The notes under the pieces: generated by a model
The model's database searches: none
What the model saw: only the letters and a program-made list of their open reading frames with translations
Told to the model about the DNA's origin: nothing
Assembly: GCA_946410185.1 (NCBI GenBank)
Contig: CAMJZI010000001.1
Span: 1-64,000 of the forward strand
From: an uncultured Porphyromonadaceae bacterium
GTDB lineage: Bacteria; Bacteroidota; Bacteroidia; Bacteroidales; Muribaculaceae
Length of the DNA: 64,000 bases
Direction of reading: 5' to 3'
In this document: positions 1,259 to 53,976 of the stretch, piece after piece
Position numbering within the stretch: the first letter of the stretch is position 1
Layout of the letters: the number at the start of each line of letters is the position of its first letter
Translations under genes and position numbers: made by a program

Positions 1259-2944
1259 TTAGTAGTGAAAACTGCTGCCTCCCAGAAATTCTCGCAGCAA
1301 ACTCGTGCTGGGAATATCTTTCTCATCGATAGACTCAAAATAGTTCAAGAATTTTATCAGTCGCGAGGCCTCGGCATACTCGGGCGTATTACTGGGCACT
1401 TGCTGCAGGATGGGCAACGCATAGCTCTTCATCACCGAGAGCTCAAACAGCAGCGAGGAGTTGAACATGGCGTCGGCATTCTCGTGGAAGGGCATGATCC
1501 ACTTGTCCTCGCCACGGCGCACACTGGGCCACCGCTTGATGGTGTCCAGGGCTCCACAACCACGGTACTTGTAGTCGCGTATGATGCGCCGCAACAGGCG
1601 GTTGTCATAGGTCCCTATCCAGTTGTGGTCGTCGATATTGAGCGTGGTCAGTGCCGAGACAAACACACGGAACTTCTGCTCGTCGGGGATGGTGCTGGTG
1701 AGCTCGGGATTCAGACCATGAATGCCCTCCATGAGCAGGATGTCGCCCTGCTCGAGCTTGAGGGTGTTGCCCAGGTACTCGCGCTCGCCTGTCTTGAAGT
1801 TATAGGTGGGCATGGCTACCTCCTTGCCCGCCAGCAGGTCGGTCACGTCTTTGTTGAACTGCTCCAGATCAAGGGCATAGAGCGACTCGTAGTCATAGTC
1901 GCCCTTCTCGTCACGCGGCGTGCGGTCACGGTTGACGAAGTAGTTATCCAGTTCTACCACCTTGGGCACGATGCAGTTGGTTATCAACTGGATGGCCAGG
2001 CGCTTGGACGAGGTGGTCTTGCCGCTCGACGACGGGCCGGCAATGAGCACCACGCGGGCGCCGCCCTCGTGGTAGCGGCGGGTAATCTCGTCGGCTATCT
2101 GGATAAAGTACTTATTGTGCAGGGCCTCTACCACGTTGATGAGCAAGGGGGCATAACCAGCATTGATAGCCCTGTTGAGCTCGCCAACGTCGCCCACACG
2201 GATGATTTTGTTAAAGTTGATGTAATCGGTGAATGCGTTGAACAGCTTGGGCTGCGGCGCCCATTTGACCACCTTGCTGATATCTGCGCGGTCGGGACCC
2301 AGCAGCAGCATGCCCTTCTCGTAGGGGACAAGATCAAAGACCTTGAGCATACCGGTCGAGGGAACCAGGGGACCATAGAAGCTGTCGATGATATCGTCCA
2401 GCTTGTAATAGATGGTATAGAGCTGATTGACGGTCTCCAGAATGCGCACCTTGTCCTTGAGACCCTGCTTGCGGAACATCTCGATGACGTCGGCTGTCAG
2501 GCGCTCGCGACGCTTGAATGGCATGTCGGCAGCGATAATCTCGCCCATGCGATGCTTGAGCTGCTCGATGACTTGCGGGGTGAGGAAATCCTCCTCGTGC
2601 TTGATCTGGCAATAATGGCCGCTACTGATGCTGTGCTGGATGCACAGGCGCTTGCCGGGATACAAGTCGTTAAGGGCCTTGTACAAGACCATGCACAACG
2701 AGCGGGTAAAAACTCGATAACCGGCATTGGAGGTGATGTCGATAAACTCGATGTGTTTGGGAGCAAAAACAGGATAGTGAAGATCCTCGACCTTGTTGTT
2801 GACAAGCACGCACACAGCCTCGCCTTTAAGCCCCAGACGACCCTTGACCGTGTCATAGAGGTCGATGAGCGCATCGCCGCCTTCGATTGCTAAATACTCG
2901 TTAGTATTCTTGCAGAAGACCTTGAGTTCATCGTACTTTTTCAT
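1259..2944 (-). CDS. Nucleoside kinase with TGS/ThrRS-like N-terminal region
   Basis: This 561-residue protein joins an N-terminal half resembling the TGS and second additional domain of threonyl-tRNA synthetase (about residues 1-260) to a uridine-kinase-type P-loop domain with GPSSSGKTT near residue 302. This long architecture is well known in Bacteroidetes and Firmicutes and is usually annotated as nucleoside kinase. The ORF track starts at a TTG (2956). I prefer the ATG at 2944 (MKKYDELK), which lies about 22 bases after a TAATTTTG -7 element. The C-terminal half is similar to the next gene (112-1152), which indicates tandem duplication with loss of the N-terminal half in the copy. Confidence 0.87.
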   Translation of the reverse strand: MKKYDELKVFCKNTNEYLAIEGGDALIDLYDTVKGRLGLKGEAVCVLVNNKVEDLHYPVFAPKHIEFIDITSNAGYRVFTRSLCMVLYKALNDLYPGKRLCIQHSISSGHYCQIKHEEDFLTPQVIEQLKHRMGEIIAADMPFKRRERLTADVIEMFRKQGLKDKVRILETVNQLYTIYYKLDDIIDSFYGPLVPSTGMLKVFDLVPYEKGMLLLGPDRADISKVVKWAPQPKLFNAFTDYINFNKIIRVGDVGELNRAINAGYAPLLINVVEALHNKYFIQIADEITRRYHEGGARVVLIAGPSSSGKTTSSKRLAIQLITNCIVPKVVELDNYFVNRDRTPRDEKGDYDYESLYALDLEQFNKDVTDLLAGKEVAMPTYNFKTGEREYLGNTLKLEQGDILLMEGIHGLNPELTSTIPDEQKFRVFVSALTTLNIDDHNWIGTYDNRLLRRIIRDYKYRGCGALDTIKRWPSVRRGEDKWIMPFHENADAMFNSSLLFELSVMKSYALPILQQVPSNTPEYAEASRLIKFLNYFESIDEKDIPSTSLLREFLGGSSFHY

Positions 2945-2966
2945 ATTGATGAGCAATTTGGAATTG

Positions 2967-4056: not shown

Positions 4057-5778
4057 TTACCAACCGGGGTTCTGGCCAATCTCGGGATTCAGGTTGATCT
4101 GATCATCGGGAATGGGGAACAGGTTGTACTTGGCATCCCACTTGCGCGGAGCACCGTTGTTCGTGCAGTTGATGTAACCGTCGGCATCGATGGTGACGTC
4201 GCTGATCTTCACGCCCTGGGCGTCATATCCGCCAACGTAGGCACCACGGCTCAGGTTGGGATTGTTGTCGGTGTCAAGCAATGAGAGCTGGTTCCAGCGA
4301 ACCAGTGACCAGTAGCGGTCGTTCATACAGTACATCATCTCGACGCGGCGCTCGCGGCGAACCTCCCAGATGATGTTGCTCACGCCCATGTTATTGGCGG
4401 GATCGGCCTCAACAGCGGTGGTCAGGTGAGGCATGCTCACGCGGTCACGCAGCAGGTTGATGGACTTGTCGAGGTCGTTCTGGGTGATGTTGCCCAGTTC
4501 GGCGCAAGCCTCGGCATAGTTCAGCAGGATCTCGGCATACCAGAAGATGGGAGCGTCGGTCCAGTTACCATAGGTGCTCTGACGGTTGGTGTTGTCAATC
4601 AGGTTGGTATCAAACAGGAATACACCATAACCGGTCGAAGCGGTGGACTGGGCACCGCCAAAGCGAGCGTAACCACAGCCGGGGAATTGCAGGATCTTGT
4701 CAACCTGAGCGCTCAGGCGCGGGTCGCGGGTCGCGAGCACGTTGCTGATGTCGATGTAGTGAGCCTCGCCCAGGCCCGAGTTGTCGTCGAGGACAACCAC
4801 GGTACCGTGGTCGCTGGTGTTCAGGGCGGTGGTAGCCAGGGGCTTACCGTCCTTGAACAGGTAACTGTCGAAAGCATCCTTGGTCATACCGTTGACCTGG
4901 GTTGAACCGCAGGTGTAGTCGATAGTACCATGGGCAAACGTACCCTTGATGTAGTGCTTGTACAGGATCATCTCCTTGTTACCAGCCAGATCAAGCGAGT
5001 TGAAGTTGGCCTGGTAGTTGCTGTTGAGGCTGAAGTTGCCCGAGTTCATGATCTCCTCACAGGCCTTCTTGGCTTCGGTCAGGTAGGCGTTGGCGCGGGT
5101 ATTGTCGTTCTTGACATACTTGCTGTAGTCACCCTCATACAGGCACACCTCGGCCTTCATGGCCAGAGCAACCCACTTGTTGAAAGCGGTGCGCGAATTG
5201 GCATTGTCGGTGATGTTGGCGCAAGCATAGTTCAGATCCTCAAGCACCTTGTCCATGACGATGTTGCGGGGCTGACGGGGACCGTACAGAATATCATTAT
5301 CACTGGGATCGAGCACCTTGTCTACCCAGTAGCAGTCGCCATAGGCACGCACGAGCTTGTAGTGCTGCCATGCGCGGTACAGGCGGCCGATACCCAGCCA
5401 GTTGGCCCTCTTGGCCTCGCTCATCGACTCAATGCTTGGGATAGCGGCAATCATCGTGTTGGCACGGCGAATCTCCACATAGGGCGTGTTCCATGCACCA
5501 GCGCTACCAGGAACGTTCATGTAGGTCCACTTGGTGATACCAGTCGAAGCCTGGTCGTCGTTCAGCGTGTTGAAATAGTAGTCACCGCTGCCGCTGCCAT
5601 AACCCGTAAAGGTGTTATAGAAGGAGTTGGCGAACAGCTGGACGTTGGTCTCACTGGTAAAATAGTTGTCCTTGGTAAACTGATCGTAGGGGTCAGTGTC
5701 GAGAACATCATTGCAAGATGCCAGCGACAACAAGGCAACACCCAGTCCACACAGTATAATTGATTTGAGTGATTTCAT
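4057..5778 (-). CDS. SusD/RagB-family outer-membrane lipoprotein
   Basis: This is a 573-residue substrate-binding lid of a SusC/SusD nutrient transporter. The lipoprotein signal ends in SLASC at about residue 22, giving a surface lipid anchor. The N-terminal CNDVLDTDPYDQFTKDNYF is typical of SusD, and the helical TPR-like region and the C-terminal WEVRRERRVEMMYCMNDRYW(S)LVRW block match the family. It follows susC by 126 bases in the same operon. No glycoside hydrolase, sulfatase or protease gene lies beside the pair, so the substrate cannot be inferred. Length is normal for the family. Confidence 0.93.
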   Translation of the reverse strand: MKSLKSIILCGLGVALLSLASCNDVLDTDPYDQFTKDNYFTSETNVQLFANSFYNTFTGYGSGSGDYYFNTLNDDQASTGITKWTYMNVPGSAGAWNTPYVEIRRANTMIAAIPSIESMSEAKRANWLGIGRLYRAWQHYKLVRAYGDCYWVDKVLDPSDNDILYGPRQPRNIVMDKVLEDLNYACANITDNANSRTAFNKWVALAMKAEVCLYEGDYSKYVKNDNTRANAYLTEAKKACEEIMNSGNFSLNSNYQANFNSLDLAGNKEMILYKHYIKGTFAHGTIDYTCGSTQVNGMTKDAFDSYLFKDGKPLATTALNTSDHGTVVVLDDNSGLGEAHYIDISNVLATRDPRLSAQVDKILQFPGCGYARFGGAQSTASTGYGVFLFDTNLIDNTNRQSTYGNWTDAPIFWYAEILLNYAEACAELGNITQNDLDKSINLLRDRVSMPHLTTAVEADPANNMGVSNIIWEVRRERRVEMMYCMNDRYWSLVRWNQLSLLDTDNNPNLSRGAYVGGYDAQGVKISDVTIDADGYINCTNNGAPRKWDAKYNLFPIPDDQINLNPEIGQNPGW

Positions 5779-5904: not shown

Positions 5905-8900
5905 TTACTTCACAATGATCTCGCAGATTGAAACACGATTCCAGCTCAACTCATCAAACATCTTGCTGATGCCCTGACCCTGGGCATTGATGCGCTTGGC
6001 ATCAATGCCATACTTGTTCACGAGCATGTCCTTCACGCTGGCGGCACGGCCGTTAGCGAGCTTGATGTTGTTGTCCATCGGACCCTCGGGTGAGGCATAA
6101 CCGTTGATGACGCAGGTTGCCTCGGGGTGGCTCTTCAAGTAAGCGGCAACACGCTCCACGTTAGGACGCTGGTCGGCGCTGACGGCGGTCTTGTTCACGG
6201 GGAAGTGAACGAGCACGTTCATGTACTGCTTGCTGTTGTCTACCACCTTGGGAGCGGAATTCTTGGCAGCATTCAGGTCGTTGCGGCAGTTGGCCAGAGC
6301 GCGGTTGGCGGCATCCAGGTCATTCTGCAACTGGGCCAGACGGCTGTTATAGTTGTTCTCAGCATCGGCGAGCTGAGCGCGCAGGTCATTGATCTGGGCA
6401 TTCAGGGCGCTGTTGTCGGCGGGAGCGGCAACGGCACTGCGGTTGTTGCTGCCGAAGGTCAACTGCACACCCACACTGTAAGTGCGCATGACAGGCTCGG
6501 TACGGCCCCAAACGGCGTTACTTAAGTAACCCACACCGGTGTTGATCTCGGGATCGATGCCAGTGCCGTTGTTGTGGTTGATGATGTCGAACAGGTTGTC
6601 GGTCGAAGCATAGATGCGCAGCTTCTCGATCATGGCCTTGCGGGTCCAGTTCTGAGGCAGCGTGTAACCCACGGTGATGTTCTTCATGCGCAGGTAAGCC
6701 ATGTTCACCAGATACTTGCTCTGGGGATAGAAGTTGAACTTACCCAGGTCAAGGATGTCGCTCGAAGCGTTACCACGGCCGGCACCACCAGCCCACATAC
6801 GCGGGAATTCGGCGCCCTGGTCGATCTTGCCAGCGGCATAGTCGGCCTCGGTGATATAGCTGGTCTGGTTGTCATAGATGGCATCAGCACCACGCATGAA
6901 CGGCATCACGAATGCAGACTGGGTCCACATGTCGCGCTTGCCCACGCCCTGCATGTAGATATCAATATCAATGCCCTTCCAGGCAGCGCCCAGACGCAGT
7001 GAGTACTGGTAGCGCGGGGTGAAGTTACCAATGCGCTTCAGGTCACCGTGATCCTCGGGAGTACCCTTGCCCCAGTCGATAACGCCGTTACCGTCCAGGT
7101 CCTTGAACTTGATGTCACCAGGGCCATAGACGAAGCCGTTGGACTGCAGCTTGGTCTGGTCGGCAACGCCAGCGGCATAGGTGCCGTCGGCATTGAAGTC
7201 CTTGAAGTCGAAGTAGCGGTCGGTCTCAAAGCCCCAGATCTCGCCATACTCCTTGCCAGAGTAATTGTTGTTGATCATGTTGTTGCTGTCCCACTTGATG
7301 ACCTTGGTTTTGTAGTCACTCAAGACTGCGGTTGCATAGAAATCAACATTGCCGATGCGGTTGCGGTAGTCAAGGCTGACTTCCCAACCACGGGTGCGCA
7401 TATCACCAGCGTTCTCCCATGCGGCGTCTGCACCAATAACTGAAGGCAGAGCCTTGCCAGGAGCAAGCATGTCCTTATTTTCACGCTGGAACCAGTCGGC
7501 AATCAAGTTCAGGTGGCCGTTAAAGAAGGCCAAGTCAATACCCACGTTCAGGGTATGGATTTTCTCCCAGGTCAGGGATTCAGAAACCATCTTGGGAGCA
7601 CCAAAGAAGTCCAAGGGCAAATCATTAGAACTTAACCAATTAATGTGTCTGGTATTGCGTTCACCATAATCCTTGTTCTTTTCCAGGGTCTCGATGAACA
7701 TGTAATCACCCACCTCTTGGTTACCGATTACACCATAAGATGCACGGATCTTGGCATTGCTGATGGTGTTCTTGATGGGTGCCCAGAAGGCCTCCTCGCT
7801 GATGCGGTAACCAATCGATGCCGAGGGGAAGAATGCCCACTGATCCTTCTTGGGGAACTTGCTCGAACCGTCATAGCGGCCGTTCAACTCGATCAGGTAG
7901 CGACCCTTGTAGTCATAATTGATGCGGCCAAAGAAGCCCGCCGAGCCCCAGTGGTTGTGGTGATGCTCATAACTATAGTCCTCATTGCTGAGAGCCAACT
8001 CAGGCATGTTAATATCCTGGATGCCATGACGCTCGTAGTAGAGGTACTCATAGTCAGTCTTATCCACGTTGGCACCCACCTTCAGGTTGAAGTTGTGGGC
8101 ATCGTTGATCGACTTGAAAAAGTCGAAGTAACCGTTGGCAACGTGGTTCTCCTTGAAAGCGCGAGAGGTCTCGATGAAGGTCGAGGACGTGATGTCCACA
8201 GGTCCCTGGGGATTCAGACCCCAAGTGTTATAGACAATCGAGGGAAGACCTACGCCTTTGTACCTGTTGGTCCTCTTGATGAAGGTGTAGTCGGCATTGA
8301 AGCTCAGGCCGTAGCCAAAGTCAATCTTGCCAAACACGCCCAAGCTCATGTTGTTCATCTTGTAGTAGCTGTCACCACCGGTGTTGCGACCGCCAATCAT
8401 GGTGCGGGCGTCATACTGCTTGCCATCCTCGGGATTCACAAAGTAGCCGTAGGGGCCAAAGAACGAGCCCCAGCGCCACAGGTACTGGTAGGTACCGGCA
8501 CCGCGCTTATAGGGGGTCTCAAAGGTCCTGTCAACGTAGCTCACACGGGTACCGAGTTCCAACCAATCGGTAGCACGTACCGAAACGTTGGCAGTGGCAT
8601 TGTACTTGCGGAACTTGTCGGGGTTGAAGTTCATCAACGATTGCTTCTGGTTGTAACCAACGCTGGTGTAGAAATTGATGCGACCCGAGTTACCAGTTAC
8701 GCTCAGGTTGTGACTCTGGCTGGGAGCATGGTTGTTGAACATGATGCCAGGCACATCCCAGTTGGCATAGTAACCGTTCTCATCATAGTCGTCACCATAG
8801 ACCATCTCGCGATACTTGTCCTTGATGTCGCCATGCTTCTTGATCCAGTTGTTGATACCATTCTGGAATTCCTCGCTGTCGAGATACATACCGAAGAGTT

Positions 8901-9768
8901 CCGATGCAACGCCCATGCGCTTGTTCACGTCGTTAAGGGCGCTCACCTGGGTGGGCACGTTGGGATAGTCGGGCAGCGTGGTTGCCTGACTCCAAGCGAA
9001 GTTGTTGTTGTAGCTTATCCTGACGTTATCCTTCACGTGAGCGGTCTTGGTAGTGATCAATACAACACCAAAGGCTGCACGAGTACCGTAGATCGAGGTC
9101 GAAGCAGCATCCTTCAAGACACTGATGTTCTCGATATCGGCGGGGTTGAGGTCACCCAGGGTTTCAACGGGGACACCATCAACGATGTACAACGGGGTAG
9201 AAATACCATCATTGGACAGCGTACCGATACCACGGATGACGATTGAGGGATCGGCGCTGATGTCACCGTTAGCGTTCAAAATGGTCAAGCCGGGAACGTT
9301 ACCCTGAAGAGACTTGCGGATGTCGGTCTCGGACTTGGAACCAAGCACTTTGTCCACATCCACGGTGCTCACGGCGCCGGTCAGGTTGGCCTTGCGCTGT
9401 GTACCGTAACCAACGACTACGATCTCATCGAGCTTGGCGTTATCCTCGGCGAGGACAACACGCATGCCGTTGCTGGCACGCAACTCCTGCGTCTTGTAGC
9501 CGATGAATGAAATCTGAAGCTTAGCGTTTGGGCTAGCTTTGAACGAGAAGTTACCGTCCACATCGGTAGATGTGCCACGGGTCGTTCCAACCTCGACAAT
9601 GCTGGCGCCGATGACGGGTTCTCCCTGCTCATCGACAACACGGCCTGTCACAATGCTGGTGGCGGTACTTGCCGTCACCTGGGGCGCGGGTGCTGCCTGG
9701 GCCTGATAACCAGTGCCGCAGAACATCAACAAGGCGCCCAAAAGAGCTAAATGTCCTTTCATAAGCAT
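5905..9768 (-). CDS. SusC/RagA TonB-dependent transporter fused to OmpA-like domain
   Basis: The protein has 1287 residues. It has a signal peptide (to about residue 25), a carboxypeptidase-regulatory-like domain (VTGRVVDEQGEPVIGASI), a TonB-box-like DEIVVVGYGTQ, a plug domain and a 22-strand-type barrel ending at VGVQLTF near residue 1105. Normal SusC proteins stop here. This one continues for 182 residues: an alanine/asparagine-rich heptad coiled coil (about 1118-1170) and an OmpA C-terminal-like domain (about 1181-1287) with GYASPEGP and NGRAASVKDML. The OmpA position that usually holds the diaminopimelate-binding Asp is Ser in GYAS, while the Arg in NGRA is kept. The barrel C-terminus faces the periplasm, so a peptidoglycan-directed tail is the simplest inference. 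A second ATG at 9762 is an alternative start. Confidence 0.93.
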   Translation of the reverse strand: MLMKGHLALLGALLMFCGTGYQAQAAPAPQVTASTATSIVTGRVVDEQGEPVIGASIVEVGTTRGTSTDVDGNFSFKASPNAKLQISFIGYKTQELRASNGMRVVLAEDNAKLDEIVVVGYGTQRKANLTGAVSTVDVDKVLGSKSETDIRKSLQGNVPGLTILNANGDISADPSIVIRGIGTLSNDGISTPLYIVDGVPVETLGDLNPADIENISVLKDAASTSIYGTRAAFGVVLITTKTAHVKDNVRISYNNNFAWSQATTLPDYPNVPTQVSALNDVNKRMGVASELFGMYLDSEEFQNGINNWIKKHGDIKDKYREMVYGDDYDENGYYANWDVPGIMFNNHAPSQSHNLSVTGNSGRINFYTSVGYNQKQSLMNFNPDKFRKYNATANVSVRATDWLELGTRVSYVDRTFETPYKRGAGTYQYLWRWGSFFGPYGYFVNPEDGKQYDARTMIGGRNTGGDSYYKMNNMSLGVFGKIDFGYGLSFNADYTFIKRTNRYKGVGLPSIVYNTWGLNPQGPVDITSSTFIETSRAFKENHVANGYFDFFKSINDAHNFNLKVGANVDKTDYEYLYYERHGIQDINMPELALSNEDYSYEHHHNHWGSAGFFGRINYDYKGRYLIELNGRYDGSSKFPKKDQWAFFPSASIGYRISEEAFWAPIKNTISNAKIRASYGVIGNQEVGDYMFIETLEKNKDYGERNTRHINWLSSNDLPLDFFGAPKMVSESLTWEKIHTLNVGIDLAFFNGHLNLIADWFQRENKDMLAPGKALPSVIGADAAWENAGDMRTRGWEVSLDYRNRIGNVDFYATAVLSDYKTKVIKWDSNNMINNNYSGKEYGEIWGFETDRYFDFKDFNADGTYAAGVADQTKLQSNGFVYGPGDIKFKDLDGNGVIDWGKGTPEDHGDLKRIGNFTPRYQYSLRLGAAWKGIDIDIYMQGVGKRDMWTQSAFVMPFMRGADAIYDNQTSYITEADYAAGKIDQGAEFPRMWAGGAGRGNASSDILDLGKFNFYPQSKYLVNMAYLRMKNITVGYTLPQNWTRKAMIEKLRIYASTDNLFDIINHNNGTGIDPEINTGVGYLSNAVWGRTEPVMRTYSVGVQLTFGSNNRSAVAAPADNSALNAQINDLRAQLADAENNYNSRLAQLQNDLDAANRALANCRNDLNAAKNSAPKVVDNSKQYMNVLVHFPVNKTAVSADQRPNVERVAAYLKSHPEATCVINGYASPEGPMDNNIKLANGRAASVKDMLVNKYGIDAKRINAQGQGISKMFDELSWNRVSICEIIVK

Positions 9769-10123
9769 GTTTTAGTTAGTAATATTAATAAATTATTAAT
9801 TGTTAATTCATAATCAAATGCCGCATAATTGCAACCATTCTCAACAAAATGCGTTTGCTTGCGCATTTTGCTTTTATAATAATAAAGTGCAAAATTCTAT
9901 AATTTTTTTGAAATGGCAAAAAATTAGGACACTTTTTACAAATACAAACGTTAAAAATGATGAAAAATCGTACCAAATTCAAAAATACAGGGGCTCAAAT
10001 GCCCCTTTTTAGAGTTTTTGATAGCATTCCTTCAACATATTTTAGACTCTCAAATTTAAGTTTGCAAATTCTTGGAGATCGATAGTGGACATGTCATGAG
10101 AAGAGGTCAATCGATGGCAGGGC
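9769..10123. other. Intergenic region upstream of fused susC
   Basis: This 355-base gap is AT-rich. An AGGGGC/GCCCCT hairpin lies at 9989-10006 and may end the glycosyltransferase transcript that reads towards it. Two minus-strand words match the -7 consensus: TATTTTTG at 9980-9987 and TAAATTTG at 10051-10058. Either would give a leader of over 200 bases for susC. I cannot choose between them and see no small ORF or known riboswitch here. Confidence 0.4.
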
Positions 10124-11263
10124 TCATTCGTCGGTCGATGGCACGTCGATGTCGATGACCGGGGCGGCCTCGAGCAGGCGGCGGTACAGGTCGGTCATCT
10201 TGTGATAGAAGGTGGGATAGTCCAGGTTGTCCTGGAAATCCTTCTGGGCCTGCGTTCCCATGCGGGAGCGGCCGGCTGTGTCGTTGATGAGCTGGTTGAT
10301 GGCAGTGAGCAGGGCTTGCTCATCGCCCGGCGGTACGAGCAGACCATTCACGCCGTCGTGCACATACTCGGGCTGTGCGCCGTTGTTGCTGCAGATGTGG
10401 GCCTTGCCTGCCATCATATACTCCAAGTTACTGATACCCAGCGCCTCGGGCTGAATCGACGGCAGCACGCCGAAGTCGGCTTGCCGCAGGTACTCCAGGA
10501 TGTTGTCCCTGAAACCGAGCAGGGTCACGTTATTGACCATGCCGGCAGCAACGATGAATCCCTTGATTTTTGCCTTGTATTTGGGCTGTCCCTCGCCGAT
10601 GATGGCCAGGTGATATTTTGTCTTGTCCACATGGGTCAGGGCACCCAGCAGGGCCTCTATGCCCTTTTCGGGAGTGAGCTTGCCGTGGTACATGATCAGG
10701 GCCTGATGGCTGTCAAGACCCAATTCACGCCTCAGATCGGGCACCGCAGTGCCTAACTGGCTGTCACACACGCTGTCACGAATGACCACCGCACGGTCGG
10801 CATACTGCTTCTTGGCCTTGCCCAGGAAGGCGTCTCGCGCCATCTGGGACGAGAAAACAAAACCGTCAATCGACTTGTATAACTTATTGTACATGTAGTT
10901 GTTCTTGGGCTTGTAAACACCGTGAACGCTCACTATCACGCGCGTATCGCGGTTCTCACTGATGCGACGGGCCATCACGGCCATGAAGGCATCCTTGAAA
11001 CTGTGCACATGGATGATATTTTTACCCTTGCGCAACAAGCGTGCAAACCTCACGGGCGAATCGATGTCGGTCACGCCCTTAAGCGGCAGGATGGAAATGG
11101 GAATTTCCAGGCGACGGTACTGCTTGAGCACGTTTGGATGCTTGCGGCATACCACCTCGGCATAGAAATCGGGGTCGTTGCGTAACCGCTCGACCAAGTC
11201 ATAAGTATATTGCTCGGCACCTGTCCAGTGCTTGTTAGAAACAATATGAAAAACGTTAATCAT
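10124..11263 (-). CDS. Glycosyltransferase, GT4-like (group 1)
   Basis: The 379-residue cytoplasmic enzyme has the GT-B fold expected to transfer a sugar from a nucleotide donor to a glycan or lipid acceptor. The N-terminal half has HIVSNKHWTGAEQYTYDLVE, and the C-terminal donor-binding half has GKLTPEKGIEALL, IIGEGQPKYKAKIKG and the E-x7-E type segment PEALGISNLEYMMAGKA. No polysaccharide locus surrounds it, so the acceptor is unknown. A TAACTTTG -7 element lies about 56 bases upstream. The start at 11263 is an ATG. Confidence 0.85.
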   Translation of the reverse strand: MINVFHIVSNKHWTGAEQYTYDLVERLRNDPDFYAEVVCRKHPNVLKQYRRLEIPISILPLKGVTDIDSPVRFARLLRKGKNIIHVHSFKDAFMAVMARRISENRDTRVIVSVHGVYKPKNNYMYNKLYKSIDGFVFSSQMARDAFLGKAKKQYADRAVVIRDSVCDSQLGTAVPDLRRELGLDSHQALIMYHGKLTPEKGIEALLGALTHVDKTKYHLAIIGEGQPKYKAKIKGFIVAAGMVNNVTLLGFRDNILEYLRQADFGVLPSIQPEALGISNLEYMMAGKAHICSNNGAQPEYVHDGVNGLLVPPGDEQALLTAINQLINDTAGRSRMGTQAQKDFQDNLDYPTFYHKMTDLYRRLLEAAPVIDIDVPSTDE

Positions 11264-40255: not shown

Positions 40256-43200
40256 ATGAAGAAAATTGTTCTGTTGCTGATTGCTACATGTATGGTGGCA
40301 CTCTCGGCTTATGCCGACCGCACCATTCATGGGCAAGTGTTAGATGAAGCCAATGGTGAGCCACTCATTGGCGCCACTGTACAGGGTGTCGGCGTGAATC
40401 AAGGCACCGCTACCGATATTGATGGTCATTTCACGCTTAACTTGCCTGATCATGTAAAGTATGTCAACGTTTCCTATGTTGGCTATGCAACTCGTCAGGT
40501 AGAGGTTGCTAACGAAATGATAATCAAGTTGTCAGACTCTGGCCAGAGTCTTGATGAGGTAGTTGTTGTGGCTTACGGTAGCGCTAAGCGTCAGTCAATT
40601 ACCGGTTCTATCTCGGTTGTGGATGAGAAGAAAATCAAGGACCGCATCGGTTCATCGGTAACTGCCGCTCTCGAGGGTAGCACCCCTGGTATCCAGGTGA
40701 ACAATACCTACGGTGAGCCTGGTGCAGCCCCCAACATCCGCATCCGCGGTATCGGTAGCATCACCGGTTCGAGCGCTCCTCTCTATGTTGTTGATGGTGT
40801 GGCATTTGATGGCAACATCGCCGAGATCAACCCCGTGGACATCGAGAGCATGAGTGTCCTCAAGGATGCCGCTTCGGCAGCCCTGTATGGTAACCGTGCA
40901 GCCAACGGTGTTGTGCTGATTACCACCAAGAAGGGTAGCTACTCCAACAAGCCCACCGTGACTGTCCGCATCAACCAGGGTATGTACAAGCGTGGTATCG
41001 CCGAGTATGACCGCATGAATGCCGACCAGTGGATGGAGGCTTCGTGGATAGCTATGAGGAACTTTGCCATGAACGGTAGCTTGGGTCTTGATGCCGATGC
41101 TGCTGCCCAATATGCTTCCCAACGCCTTATTAGTGACTATGTAAAGCGCAATATCTATGATGTAGCTGCTACCAGTTTGTTTGATGCTAATGGTAAGCTG
41201 ACTGGACATGTTCTCCCCGGTTATGATGACCTGGATTGGGAGAAGGAAGTTGAACGCACGGGTTATCGTCAGGATTACAGCCTCTCGGGCACCGCTGGTG
41301 GCGAGAAGTACAACGTATATGCTTCGGCTGGTTACACCAATGAGAAGGGCTATGTTCAGGCCAGTGCCTATGAGCGTTTCACTGGACGTCTGAACTCCAA
41401 CTTCACCCCTAACAACTGGTTCAAGACTGGTGTGAACTTGAGTGCTACTTATGCTACCCGCAACTTCAATAGCAATGCAACTGGTAATTACTATGCCAAC
41501 CCCTTCTATGTAGCCCGCTACATGGCTCCTGTTTATCCCCTGTTCCTCCACAACGAGGATGGCTCCTACCTGCTTGACAAGAATGGTGAGCGTCAGTATG
41601 ATACCAAGTCTTCTTATCTGACCAACCGCAACATCGCCTTTGAGCTACGCAACGACTTTGACCGTAACCGTCGTGCCGTGATCGATGGCCAGATCTATGG
41701 TACATTCACCCTGCCTTTCGGCTTATCGCTGACGTTGAAGGCTGACTTCAACCACTCCAATTCCAATCGTCGTCATTACAACAACCCGTTCATTGGTGAC
41801 GGTGCTACCAATGGTGGCCGCTTGACCAGTTATGCCTATGAATATAACACCCGCACCGCTCAGGAAATCCTGAACTGGTACCGTGACTTTGACCGTCATC
41901 ACATTGAAATCATGCTGGCTCATGAGAACTATGAGAGCAACAGCCGTAGCGCCTATGGCATGAACACTGGTTCGGCAGCCGATGGTATATATGTTCCGGG
42001 TAATTTCCAGACCAACTCCTACTTCAAAGGTTTGGACGATGTAGACAGGACTGAGTCCTACCTGGGTCGTGCCCGTTACAGCTACTTTGAGAAATACTTC
42101 GTTGACTTCTCGTTCCGCCGTGATGGTTCTTCACGTTTTGCCAAGGATAACCGCTGGGGTAACTTCTACTCCTTCGGTGTGAACTGGAACATCAAAAAGG
42201 AGAACTTTCTCCAGAATGTAGACTGGCTTGACCAGCTGCGTATCCGCGCTTCTTATGGTGAGACTGGTAACAACTCTGGTGTCAGCTTGTATGCTTACCA
42301 GCCTCTGTATTATATCGAGAAGAATGCTGGTACTGCCGCTTTCATGAAGCAGAGCCTTGCTGCCGAGGACATCAAGTGGGAGACCTGCCAGAATATCGAC
42401 TTGGGTATCGAGGGTCGCGTGTTTGACCGCTTGAACTTCAACTTTGTGCTGTTCGACAAACGTAACAAGGACCTCTTGTTTGCAGTACCTCTGCCCCTGT
42501 CTGCTGGTTCTTGGAACTGGGATGATAACTACAACATGAGCATCTACAAGAACATCGGTACCATCACCAACCGTGGTATTGAGGTTTCGCTGAGCTATGA
42601 TGCAATCCGCAACAGAGATCTTAACTGGACCCTGAGCACCGAGGGCACTTTCATGAAGAGCAAGATTAAGAAGCTGCCTAACGGCAGGGACATTATTCAT
42701 GGTCAGCAGAACTACAGCGAGGGCCATGATCCCTACGAATTCTACACCTATCACTTTGTGGGCGTTGACCAGATGACAGGTCGTTCGCTCTACACCATCG
42801 ATCCCGACCTTCAGGCAAGGGCCATTGCCTATGGTGAGGCAGTAGAAATCAATGGCGTGACCTATACCACCCTGCCAGGCTCCTTTGGTAAGCGTGACTG
42901 GGCCGGCAGTGCACATCCTTGGTTCTATGGTTCGTTCAACTCAGTGCTGCAGTACAAGGGCTTCTCATTCAACGCCCTGTTTACCTATAGTCTGGGTGGC
43001 AAGGTTTATGACAGTGCTTATCAGTCACTGATGTCCACCAACTCGGCATCGTCGGCCAGCGCTAACCATTGCGACTTGATAAATTCCTGGAGCGGTGTTC
43101 CCGCAGGCATGACCGAGGATTCTCCCAACCGCATTGATCCCGATGGTCTTCCCCAGCTCGACTTTGAGAACAGCTCCTACAACAATGCTACCAGTGACCG

Positions 43201-43438
43201 CTGGTTGACCAGCGCTTCCTACTTTGTAGTGAAAAACCTCAGCCTGAGCTATTCCCTGCCCAAGCTGCTTATCAACAAGGCTGGTCTGCAGGCCCTCACC
43301 CTTACCGCAGGTGTTGAGAACCTGGCCACCTTCACTGCCCGCAAGGGTCTGAATCCCCAGTTCAACTTCAGCGGTGGTTCTGATGATACCTATGTTACCG
43401 CACGAGTGTTCAACTTCGGCCTTCAGCTTCAGTTCTGA
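40256..43438 (+). CDS. SusC/RagA TonB-dependent outer-membrane transporter
   Basis: The 1060-residue protein has a signal peptide (MKKIVLLLIATCMVALSAYA), a carboxypeptidase-regulatory-like domain (IHGQVLDEANGEPLIGATV), a TonB-box region (LDEVVVVAYGSAKRQSITGSISVV), a plug (APNIRIRGIGSITGSSAPLYVVDGV; SVLKDAASAALYGNRAANGVVLITTKKG) and the beta barrel ending in VFNFGLQLQF. It ends normally at the barrel, unlike the 1287-residue SusC at 5905-9768. It forms the pore for the SusD lid encoded next. The substrate is unknown and no CAZyme is adjacent. Confidence 0.96.
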   Translation: MKKIVLLLIATCMVALSAYADRTIHGQVLDEANGEPLIGATVQGVGVNQGTATDIDGHFTLNLPDHVKYVNVSYVGYATRQVEVANEMIIKLSDSGQSLDEVVVVAYGSAKRQSITGSISVVDEKKIKDRIGSSVTAALEGSTPGIQVNNTYGEPGAAPNIRIRGIGSITGSSAPLYVVDGVAFDGNIAEINPVDIESMSVLKDAASAALYGNRAANGVVLITTKKGSYSNKPTVTVRINQGMYKRGIAEYDRMNADQWMEASWIAMRNFAMNGSLGLDADAAAQYASQRLISDYVKRNIYDVAATSLFDANGKLTGHVLPGYDDLDWEKEVERTGYRQDYSLSGTAGGEKYNVYASAGYTNEKGYVQASAYERFTGRLNSNFTPNNWFKTGVNLSATYATRNFNSNATGNYYANPFYVARYMAPVYPLFLHNEDGSYLLDKNGERQYDTKSSYLTNRNIAFELRNDFDRNRRAVIDGQIYGTFTLPFGLSLTLKADFNHSNSNRRHYNNPFIGDGATNGGRLTSYAYEYNTRTAQEILNWYRDFDRHHIEIMLAHENYESNSRSAYGMNTGSAADGIYVPGNFQTNSYFKGLDDVDRTESYLGRARYSYFEKYFVDFSFRRDGSSRFAKDNRWGNFYSFGVNWNIKKENFLQNVDWLDQLRIRASYGETGNNSGVSLYAYQPLYYIEKNAGTAAFMKQSLAAEDIKWETCQNIDLGIEGRVFDRLNFNFVLFDKRNKDLLFAVPLPLSAGSWNWDDNYNMSIYKNIGTITNRGIEVSLSYDAIRNRDLNWTLSTEGTFMKSKIKKLPNGRDIIHGQQNYSEGHDPYEFYTYHFVGVDQMTGRSLYTIDPDLQARAIAYGEAVEINGVTYTTLPGSFGKRDWAGSAHPWFYGSFNSVLQYKGFSFNALFTYSLGGKVYDSAYQSLMSTNSASSASANHCDLINSWSGVPAGMTEDSPNRIDPDGLPQLDFENSSYNNATSDRWLTSASYFVVKNLSLSYSLPKLLINKAGLQALTLTAGVENLATFTARKGLNPQFNFSGGSDDTYVTARVFNFGLQLQF

Positions 43439-51132: not shown

Positions 51133-53976
51133 ATGATTAAAAGATTCTTAACCTTGCTGGCGCTCGTGTGCTGCGGCATTGCTGCCGTTGCCATGCCGGC
51201 CAAACCTGGTTGGCAGACATTCAACCAGAGCGATGGCACCACCCTGAAGGTTCAGGCTGTGGGCAATGCCTTTAACAACGCAATTCTCACCAGCGACGGC
51301 CTGACGGTGGCCCGAGGTGCCGACGGCGATTTCTATTACACCTCGTCGCTGACCGGGCTCACAGCCATGCGTGCCCATGACGAGGGACAGCGCACACCGG
51401 CCGAGATGGCCTTTATCAAGGCCCAGCGCGGCAACTTGACGATGACCTTCAAGTCTTACAAGCCTGTGAGTCAGAAGGGTAAACTAACAGTTGGAGGCAG
51501 CAATGCCGAGGCGGGTATCCCCGCCATGGGTCAGCGCCGCATTCCCATCGTCCTGGTCGAGTTCCAGGACAAGAGGTTCAACAACACCCGTCAGGAAATC
51601 ATCAATGCCATGCTCACCGGCAATGAGAGCGTGGGCCAGTACTTCCGCGACCAGTCCAATGGCTTGTATGAGCCCGATTTTGATGTATATGGCATCTACA
51701 CTTTGTCACAAAACCGCTCTTACTACGGGGGCAATTCGGGAGGTTCTGATAAGGGCCTGGGCTGGATGGTGACCGAGGCTTGCCAGATGGCAGCCGCCGA
51801 CGGCGTGTCGTTCAAACCCTATGACACCAACAACGATGACTTCTGCGATGTGGTCATTGTCATCTATGCCGGCGTGGGCGAGGCTCAGGCTTCGACAACC
51901 CATCCCGAGTCGGTTTGGCCCTGCAACTGGACGCTCGACGCTGCTGTCTACTACTCTTGTGGCGGCAACGGCTCTTTCAGGCCCTCGACAGGCGATCCCT
52001 ATGTCAATATGTTTGCTGTGTTCAACGAGTTGCATGGCAGCAACGACGAGGGCAAGACGATCGACGGTATCGGCACGTTTGCCCACGAGTTTGGCCATTG
52101 CCTGGGCTTGCCCGACTTCTACGACACGGGCAACGGTGGCAACTATGGCATGGGCGACTGGGACATCATGTGCATGGGTTGCTACAACAACGACGGCTTC
52201 ACGCCTGCCGGCTACACGGCCTATGAAAAGGTGTTCATGGGTTGGGTTAATTACATCAAGGCTCAGCCCGGCTTCTATTATACCTTGCCCGTGTGGAACC
52301 AGAAACAGCAATCTACCGACAAGGCTGTGTGCATTACCAGTGACGTGAACGAGAACGAGTATTTCATCCTCGAGAACCGTAAGCGTCAGGGATGGGACCG
52401 CTACATGCCTGGCGAGGGCATCATGATCACTCATGTCACCTACAATGCCGACCGCTGGGTCGAAAACACACCCAATAACCAGAACGTGCAGCTGATGACC
52501 ATTATTCCCGCCGACAACAGGCTGTCCTACTACAGCGAGAACGCTGACCTGTGGCCCCAGAACGGCAAGACCGAGTTTACCGACAATTCGACACCAGCAG
52601 CCCGCCTCAACATGAGGGCCGATGGCTCCATCACAGGCAATGCCGGATATCTGGGCAAGCCTGTGACCGAGATGACCATCAATGCCGATGGCACGGCCAG
52701 CTTCTGGTTCATGAAGGGTACCGTGGTTGACCCGCAGATTTCGGTTTCGTCAAGCGATATCGACTTTGGCAACGTGATGATGACTACCAGCGGCACCAGC
52801 AACTTGAAGGTTTACGGACTGGCCTTGACAGACAACGTGACCATGACACTCGACGATGCCGACGGTGTGTTCAGCATCAATCCTGCAACGATCACTGCCG
52901 ACGATGCCGGTAATGGCAAGGACGTGACGGTGACGTTCGCCCCGGCTGCTATTGGTGACTACAGCGCTACCCTGACGCTCAGGAGCAATGGCGCCGAGGA
53001 TGTGGTGGTTAACCTGACTGGCCATGGCACCATCGAGGGTTATGCCCCCGTGATGCTACCTGCCGACGAGAGCGCCATCAACTTGACCCAATTCCGCGCC
53101 GACTGGACCGACCAGACCCCCAAGAGCAATGTGCAGAGCTACACTCTTGAGGTGATGACCAGGCCTCTTGTTGAGCAGCTCGAGGATGTTGACTTCAGCG
53201 ACGTGCCCGATGCCGTGACGGCCGACGGCCAGGGTCTTGACGATGTGTCGGGCAAGTATAGTGATTACTTGCCGGCAGGGTGGACGGCCACGAGCTACCT
53301 GGGTGCCTATGACGGCGCGATGATTCTTGCCTTCAATGGCACAATGAAGACCCCGACCTATAGCTTGAATGGCTATGACAAGGTAACGGTTGTCATCAAG
53401 GGTGCAGCCTACTACTATGACAACTCGGTCATCACAGTGTCGACCGGCATGAGCTCACAGGAGGTAACACTGAACTCCGAGATGACCGACTATACCATTG
53501 TGCTCGACTGTGGTGCCAACGATGCCATTACCTTCCAGTCCAAGAACAACTATACCAGCGTGAAGCACATCACGGTTTATGCCGGTGATTTGACACATGC
53601 CAAGTATGGTGCCAATGAGACGGGTGACGCAACCTATCGCTTGATTACCGGCATCACCAGCAAGTTCTATACCGTGCGTGGCCTTGAGGCAGCAGGCTCC
53701 TATATCTACAAGGTGAAATCGCTGTTTGCCGATGGTACCGAGAGCGATTGGAGCAATGTGGAGGACGTCACCCTGTTTGAGAACGGTCACGGTTATGAAC
53801 TGGGCGACGTTAATCACGACAATAGCGTGAACATCGCCGATGTCTCGGTATTGATCGACTATCTGCTGGACAATGCCAATCAGTGCTGCATGATTTGTGC
53901 CGACGTGAATATGGACGAAGAAGTCACCATCGCCGATGTCTCGGAGCTTATCGACATGCTTCTCACTGAGAATTAA
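51133..53976 (+). CDS. M6-family secreted metalloprotease with dockerin-like C-terminus (long paralogue)
   Basis: The 947-residue zinc protease has a signal peptide (MIKRFLTLLALVCCGIAAVA), an N-terminal propeptide-like domain (PGWQTFNQSDGTTLKVQAVGNAF), and an M6/immune-inhibitor-A-like catalytic domain with HEFGHCLGLPD (His318, Glu319, His322) and a later YGMGDWDIMC segment. Beyond the catalytic domain are an ASH/HYDIN-type beta domain (about 531-635), a fibronectin-III-like and adhesive beta region (about 636-880) and two dockerin-like repeats at 888-947 (GDVNHDNSVNIADVSVLIDYLL and ADVNMDEEVTIADVSELIDMLL). It lies next to a shorter paralogue. Confidence 0.88.
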   Translation: MIKRFLTLLALVCCGIAAVAMPAKPGWQTFNQSDGTTLKVQAVGNAFNNAILTSDGLTVARGADGDFYYTSSLTGLTAMRAHDEGQRTPAEMAFIKAQRGNLTMTFKSYKPVSQKGKLTVGGSNAEAGIPAMGQRRIPIVLVEFQDKRFNNTRQEIINAMLTGNESVGQYFRDQSNGLYEPDFDVYGIYTLSQNRSYYGGNSGGSDKGLGWMVTEACQMAAADGVSFKPYDTNNDDFCDVVIVIYAGVGEAQASTTHPESVWPCNWTLDAAVYYSCGGNGSFRPSTGDPYVNMFAVFNELHGSNDEGKTIDGIGTFAHEFGHCLGLPDFYDTGNGGNYGMGDWDIMCMGCYNNDGFTPAGYTAYEKVFMGWVNYIKAQPGFYYTLPVWNQKQQSTDKAVCITSDVNENEYFILENRKRQGWDRYMPGEGIMITHVTYNADRWVENTPNNQNVQLMTIIPADNRLSYYSENADLWPQNGKTEFTDNSTPAARLNMRADGSITGNAGYLGKPVTEMTINADGTASFWFMKGTVVDPQISVSSSDIDFGNVMMTTSGTSNLKVYGLALTDNVTMTLDDADGVFSINPATITADDAGNGKDVTVTFAPAAIGDYSATLTLRSNGAEDVVVNLTGHGTIEGYAPVMLPADESAINLTQFRADWTDQTPKSNVQSYTLEVMTRPLVEQLEDVDFSDVPDAVTADGQGLDDVSGKYSDYLPAGWTATSYLGAYDGAMILAFNGTMKTPTYSLNGYDKVTVVIKGAAYYYDNSVITVSTGMSSQEVTLNSEMTDYTIVLDCGANDAITFQSKNNYTSVKHITVYAGDLTHAKYGANETGDATYRLITGITSKFYTVRGLEAAGSYIYKVKSLFADGTESDWSNVEDVTLFENGHGYELGDVNHDNSVNIADVSVLIDYLLDNANQCCMICADVNMDEEVTIADVSELIDMLLTEN

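Follow-up and report, generated by a model that had tools for sequence, protein, structure and literature searches.

SusCD importers are central nutrient transporters of gut Bacteroidota and, as far as we are aware, are not known to be anchored to the cell wall. Canonical SusC/RagA proteins, as described by TIGR04056 and by the structures of the dextran and levan utilisome SusC (8aa4, 8aa0), BT1762-63 (6z9a) and RagA (6sln), consist of a CarboxypepD_reg-like domain, a plug and a barrel, are followed by a downstream SusD, and terminate at the last barrel strand. A C-terminal periplasmic domain is found in OmpA, OprF and Omp38, in which a small barrel is connected by a linker to an OmpA domain (3td3, 5u1h). 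OmpM of diderm Firmicutes is a single protein that provides a nutrient channel, a stalk in the form of a coiled coil and a domain that binds the wall, with an N-terminal SLH domain and a C-terminal barrel; OmpM has been reported to be absent from Gracilicutes (PMC10628300). Here we analyse a SusC transporter encoded in a stretch of 64,000 nucleotides (the window) that possesses all canonical SusC/RagA parts, including the downstream SusD, but runs on for exactly 182 residues beyond the last strand (residues 1106-1287; 5908-6453, plus stop), the extension comprising a linker, a long helix and an OmpA-like domain (Table 1).

Table 1. Coordinates of the fused SusC gene, its parts and its SusD partner in the window.
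Feature	Position	Strand	Basis or remark
SusC/RagA TonB-dependent transporter with C-terminal OmpA module, 'type A', 1287 aa	5905..9768	(-)	single uninterrupted ORF
CarboxypepD_reg-like domain, residues 40-118	9415..9651	(-)	PF13715 E 1.1e-17
TonB plug domain, residues 126-235	9064..9393	(-)	PF07715 E 1.3e-14; TIGR04057 signature 211-241
SusC beta-barrel, last strand residues 1094-1105 (...YSVGVQLTF)	6454..9063	(-)	TIGR04056 end at 1105; model strand 975-986 + 119; Foldseek
Linker, barrel to coiled coil	6412..6453	(-)	~14-15 aa, unstructured in AlphaFold2 model
Long helix / coiled coil, ~51 residues (1120-1170)	6259..6411	(-)	predicted in two models; homologous to coil of host OmpA (L003)
Tail tract of C/D/E class inside A-type gene, residues 1146-1211	6136..6333	(-)	18 consecutive diagnostic sites
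OmpA C-terminal-like domain, residues ~1181-1287	5908..6228	(-)	PF00691; Foldseek
Ser1226 (GYASPEG), in place of DAP-contacting Asp	6091..6093	(-)	alignment to 3td3
Arg1241 (NGRAAS), in place of DAP-contacting Arg, conserved	6046..6048	(-)	alignment to 3td3
Cognate SusD, 573 aa, directly downstream of SusC	4057..5778	(-)	PF07980 E 4e-32; PF14322

That a SusC normally stops at its last barrel strand, as the first-pass annotation had pointed out, is borne out by the second SusC of the window (40256-43438), which ends together with the TIGR04056 model (position 981 of 981 at residue 1060 of 1060). This ending is usual for SusC proteins and no NCBI criterion; the type A protein departs from it by its 182 residues. 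Here, TIGR04056 (NCBIfam) matches residues 40-1105 over model positions 3-981 of 981, with 802.5 bits against a cut-off of 368, and since the match reaches the final model position, the barrel is complete ahead of the extension. The SusC signature TIGR04057 is present as well (59 bits), and Foldseek searches with the model of the whole protein returned the SusC structures 8aa4, 8aa0 and 6z9a as top matches, along with RagA (6sln). The order of SusC followed by SusD is common to the other fused loci, and two type A orthologues (L099, L100) share 83-85% identity with the window SusC.

The extension had been read from the letters of the window as a heptad-rich helix followed by an OmpA-like domain, and this reading, coordinates included, withstood closer analysis. 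PF00691 (OmpA; Pfam) matches residues 1189-1270 (E 6e-12, 46.2 bits; scores of 46-50 bits against a cut-off of 27.2), and the best Foldseek match of the tail is the Acinetobacter baumannii OmpA domain (E ~1.1e-12), in the entries 3td3, 3td4 and 3td5, solved with glycine, diaminopimelate (DAP) and a muropeptide. Structure prediction, which had been proposed as a check, was carried out with AlphaFold2 on an alignment of 63 SusCs from the genus and yielded a SusC barrel up to residue 1105, an unstructured stretch, a 51-residue helix and an OmpA fold (mean pLDDT 72; ~70-89 for most of the OmpA part and a modest ~60 for the helix). A model of the tail on its own contained the same parts with a mean pLDDT of 87.4, reaching 92-95 over most of the helix. 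The helix, predicted in both models, would measure ~7.7 nm, similar to the length of the Braun's lipoprotein helix. Its a and d positions are hydrophobic beyond chance: none of 300 shuffles matched the score of the window helix, with one register shift allowed, and none of 100 did so for one member each of the SusC types A, C, D and E introduced below. Conservation within the tail is strongest at the end of the OmpA domain (MFDELSWNRVSICEI), not in the coil.

A fusion known from one contig might be an assembly artefact, in which an adjacent ompA gene was joined to a SusC gene by misassembly, a possibility that the first-pass annotation had raised, and the source genome is a fragmented draft, 62% complete. 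However, its stand-alone ompA lies on a separate contig (C16), and the identical junction occurs on five SusC types in independent assemblies from many projects, which rules out misassembly as the cause; we give this explanation practically no credence. The source genome carries a second fusion, of type B, on contig C79, and the proposed search for further SusC-OmpA fusions recovered 104 copies in all, with 38 of 101 genomes of the genus carrying at least one. The fused records stem from independent metagenome projects, among them goat, sheep, roe deer and water buffalo samples, and are labelled Muribaculaceae, Prevotellaceae, Porphyromonadaceae or just Bacteroidales; titled fused records were metagenome-derived, and no fused isolate was seen among them. 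Some fused SusC frames are short or split (L053, L077 and G316:C58; for example 763, 851 and 402 aa); these are perhaps pseudogenes, recombination products or assembly errors.

Among the genomes searched, the fusion is restricted to one sub-clade of a ruminant-gut Bacteroidales genus. In 297 sampled genomes of the family, those of the listed matches that span barrel and tail were confined to this genus, SusC and OmpA being separate in the other family genomes. Searches of the order (393 genomes, 207 genera) and of the phylum (396 genomes, 172 genera) returned no spanning match outside the genus, with four candidates per genome scored at cut-offs of 1e-48 and 1e-24, at which weakly similar independent fusions could be missed; the SusCs matched beyond the genus in the phylum-wide search end approximately at the barrel end. 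A wider distribution finds no support in these searches of sampled family, order and phylum genomes. In the open-access papers searched, we found no description of a SusC-OmpA fusion.

The tail originates from the OmpA family of the genus, as indicated by its grouping and by a homology that includes the coiled coil. The host's stand-alone OmpA (414 aa) is 68% identical to the tail, coil included, and in a tail tree that includes 13 of the genus's OmpAs, the tails group together without exception, the nearest OmpAs being those of the source genome (G000) and of G009. This tail is found on five SusC types, termed A (the window protein) to E. The barrels of A, C, D and E are only 28-36% identical to each other, and those of A and B 52%, compared to 67-90% for the tails; among the paralogues within a single genome (G018), nucleotide identities amount to 45-51% for barrels and 72-85% for tails. 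In the barrel tree, unfused close relatives from sister species are found for four of the types (B: G010/G011; C: G005/G010/G015; D: G012; E: G011/G015), while type A shares its nearest unfused relatives with type B. AU tests reject both a grouping of all fused barrels in one clade (p-AU 0.0006) and a clade of A and B alone (p-AU 3e-5), and the fused barrels need at least 5-6 changes of state. One fusion followed by ordinary duplication was discarded as an explanation, being at odds with both the barrel tree and the discordant barrel and tail identities. The barrel tree by itself does not distinguish gains from losses, but the tails are far more alike than their barrels, and loss alone would therefore not explain the pattern. 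As the fused barrels are not one clade, yet their tails form one group, the tail was probably captured once from OmpA and then spread among SusC paralogues by recombination. This spread across at least five SusC types lay beyond what the first-pass annotation could see and is the more interesting part of our results. An unfused type C SusC of G015 (L162, 5286-8480) is nested among the fused C sequences, with support 99, in the larger of two barrel trees, but not in the smaller; it is possible that it lost the tail or that there was a separate gain.

It is conceivable that the tail is a neutral addition of little function, whose repetition across linked SusC genes, together with tolerance at the C-terminus, lets it spread by recombination. 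Its spread among linked paralogues and the fact that some sister species manage without it would agree with this notion. The dN/dS ratios within types, however, are 0.10-0.25 for tails, similar to the 0.07-0.21 of barrels, indicating that the tail is maintained by purifying selection. Together with its occurrence on five SusC types with few truncated copies, and with a constant linker length (15-18 aa from the last barrel Phe to the start of coil homology in all five types), this makes a neutral tail very improbable.

The tail in the window is itself a mosaic. At 23 diagnostic sites, tails of the A/B class differ from those of the C/D/E class; the window gene, although of type A, follows the C/D/E class over an unbroken run of the first 18 and the A/B class at three of the last five. 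The identity of its tail reaches 89% with C/D/E-class tails, but is 73-78% with the A- and B-type tails compared, and every other A-type gene tested (16, then more) has a mainly A/B-type tail. Judged by this pattern of sites, the tract at 6136-6333 is likely to reflect gene conversion; alternatively, it may be a chimera produced locally by short-read assembly of the MAG, which would leave the fusion itself unaffected. In G018 and G024, types A, C and D are adjacent to one another, with glycosyltransferase-like and SPFH-type proteins on one flank. The window locus has kept A and these flanking genes, and C and D are missing: the two SusCD pairs, which in G018 and G024 separate the type A gene from the glycosyltransferase gene, are absent from 9768-10124, where only ~355 bases remain.

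Two PRK/uridine-kinase-like paralogues are encoded at 112-1152 and 1259-2956 (-), the second being longer, with a kinase domain at residues 303-499 (from a domain scan of this second gene); similar neighbours occur in the same order at the G018 locus. We saw no link to a polysaccharide locus in the flanks examined, which comprise PRK/uridine kinase-like, metallo-beta-lactamase fold, glycosyltransferase and SPFH genes. Elsewhere in the window, the gene at 51133-53976 (+) encodes an M6 peptidase that bears a type I dockerin at its C-terminus. The source genome has 83 dockerin matches above cut-off and no cohesin matches; in 12 further genomes of the genus, dockerin matches number 36-153 per genome, and cohesin matches are weak and never exceed four. 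Since these many dockerins are present in fused and unfused species alike, a link between them and the fusion was rejected; a Bacteroidales genus so rich in dockerins and almost without recognisable cohesins merits a separate study.

For the A. baumannii OmpA domain, a passage in PMC6572160 that cites the structure names D271 and R286 as the residues contacting DAP; the same Asp corresponds to D268 in the strain used there, in which D268A impaired several functions. In the tails, the Arg is invariant, as it is in the OmpAs of our alignment (A3), whereas the Asp is absent: Ser takes its place in 69 of the 70 tails that were split off, the remaining one lacking the GYA motif. The Asn of the 'VNK' motif, aligned to NK of the A. 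baumannii protein, is replaced in most type E tails. The first-pass annotation had correctly placed Ser at the position of the usual Asp and had taken it as a hint that the fused domain binds a different ligand. This latter proposal we abandoned. The GYAS motif is invariant in the aligned stand-alone OmpAs of the genus and also occurs in OmpAs from another genus of the family (L203) and from other families of the order (L205, L027), indicating that Ser predates the fusion and that nothing about it is fusion-specific. Given the replacement of the Asp, classical DAP binding by the tail may be weak or absent. One might imagine that the ligand of the tail is not peptidoglycan but a partner particular to the lineage, such as a lipoprotein of the periplasm or a wall component other than DAP, which the Ser-type OmpAs of the order would bind as well; the presence of Ser in tails and OmpAs of this and other lineages is in line with that. 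But both fold and Arg contact match those of OmpA domains that bind peptidoglycan, and Ser may simply reduce affinity; we consider a partner of this kind improbable.

The tail corresponds to the periplasmic half of the host OmpA, and the function most economically inferred for it is therefore a tether that links the SusCD importer with the wall or a different envelope complex; the proposal of the first-pass annotation that the transporter is tied to peptidoglycan or to such a complex is retained in this form. On balance, we favour a genuine functional fusion, in which the OmpA-like tail probably ties the importer to the wall or joins it to OmpA. A SusC would have gained the periplasmic half of the host OmpA, that is coiled coil and OmpA domain, right after its last barrel strand, and recombination would then have carried this module to five or more divergent SusC types. 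The barrel would stay in the outer membrane with SusD as its lid, and the tail would hang into the periplasm, its linker of ~15 aa and its ~7.7 nm helix leading from the outer membrane to the wall. The OmpA domain would hold the importer to peptidoglycan, or the coil would join the coil of OmpA or of a SusC partner. In either case, the transporter would double as an envelope tether and would keep a set position and distance with respect to the wall and TonB.

SusCD complexes are dimers in the solved structures, so two tails would lie close together. The coil could then be the main functional part, forming SusC homo-oligomers or hetero-oligomers with the host OmpA, and possibly OmpA-linked importer arrays, with the OmpA domain as a passenger. 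The homology of the coil to that of the cell's own OmpA, its significant a/d pattern in the types tested and the missing DAP-contacting Asp are compatible with such a role, but the peak of conservation at MFDELSWNRVSICEI, outside the coil, speaks against it, and we regard it as rather unlikely. Returning to the tether, we see an even prospect for a broader formulation, in which the tail is a transplantable periplasmic cassette that was taken once from the host OmpA and copied by recombination onto unrelated SusCs; one protein would then both import nutrients and anchor the outer membrane to the wall, as a new kind of tether in Bacteroidota.

Compared to known systems, the window SusC shares the C-terminal periplasmic domain of OmpA, OprF and Omp38, but has a TonB-dependent importer barrel in place of their small barrel, and Ser instead of the DAP-contacting Asp, a trait shared with OmpA of the genus. 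PorE and TraB (NF052230, NF033763), which are outer-membrane or periplasmic proteins, but not TonB-dependent transporters, likewise join an OmpA domain to other modules; their models match the window SusC weakly, in the OmpA region only and far below the family cut-offs. With its channel, coil and wall-type domain, the fusion would work in a manner analogous to OmpM, without being homologous to it or a member of its family: the Pfam scan of the window SusC detected no SLH domain, and its tail is C-terminal. If the tether is real, import, TonB engagement and envelope stability would be coupled in one protein, in a group reported to lack OmpM, much as such coupling has been proposed for OmpM in Terrabacteria (PMC10628300). 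The movement of one domain across at least five paralogous transporters within a single genus, with unfused close relatives available for comparison, opens a direct test of how a wall tether affects SusCD function. The parts, a SusC and an OmpA module, are known from the systems above, and the fusion is a variation on them whose evolutionary history is unusual.
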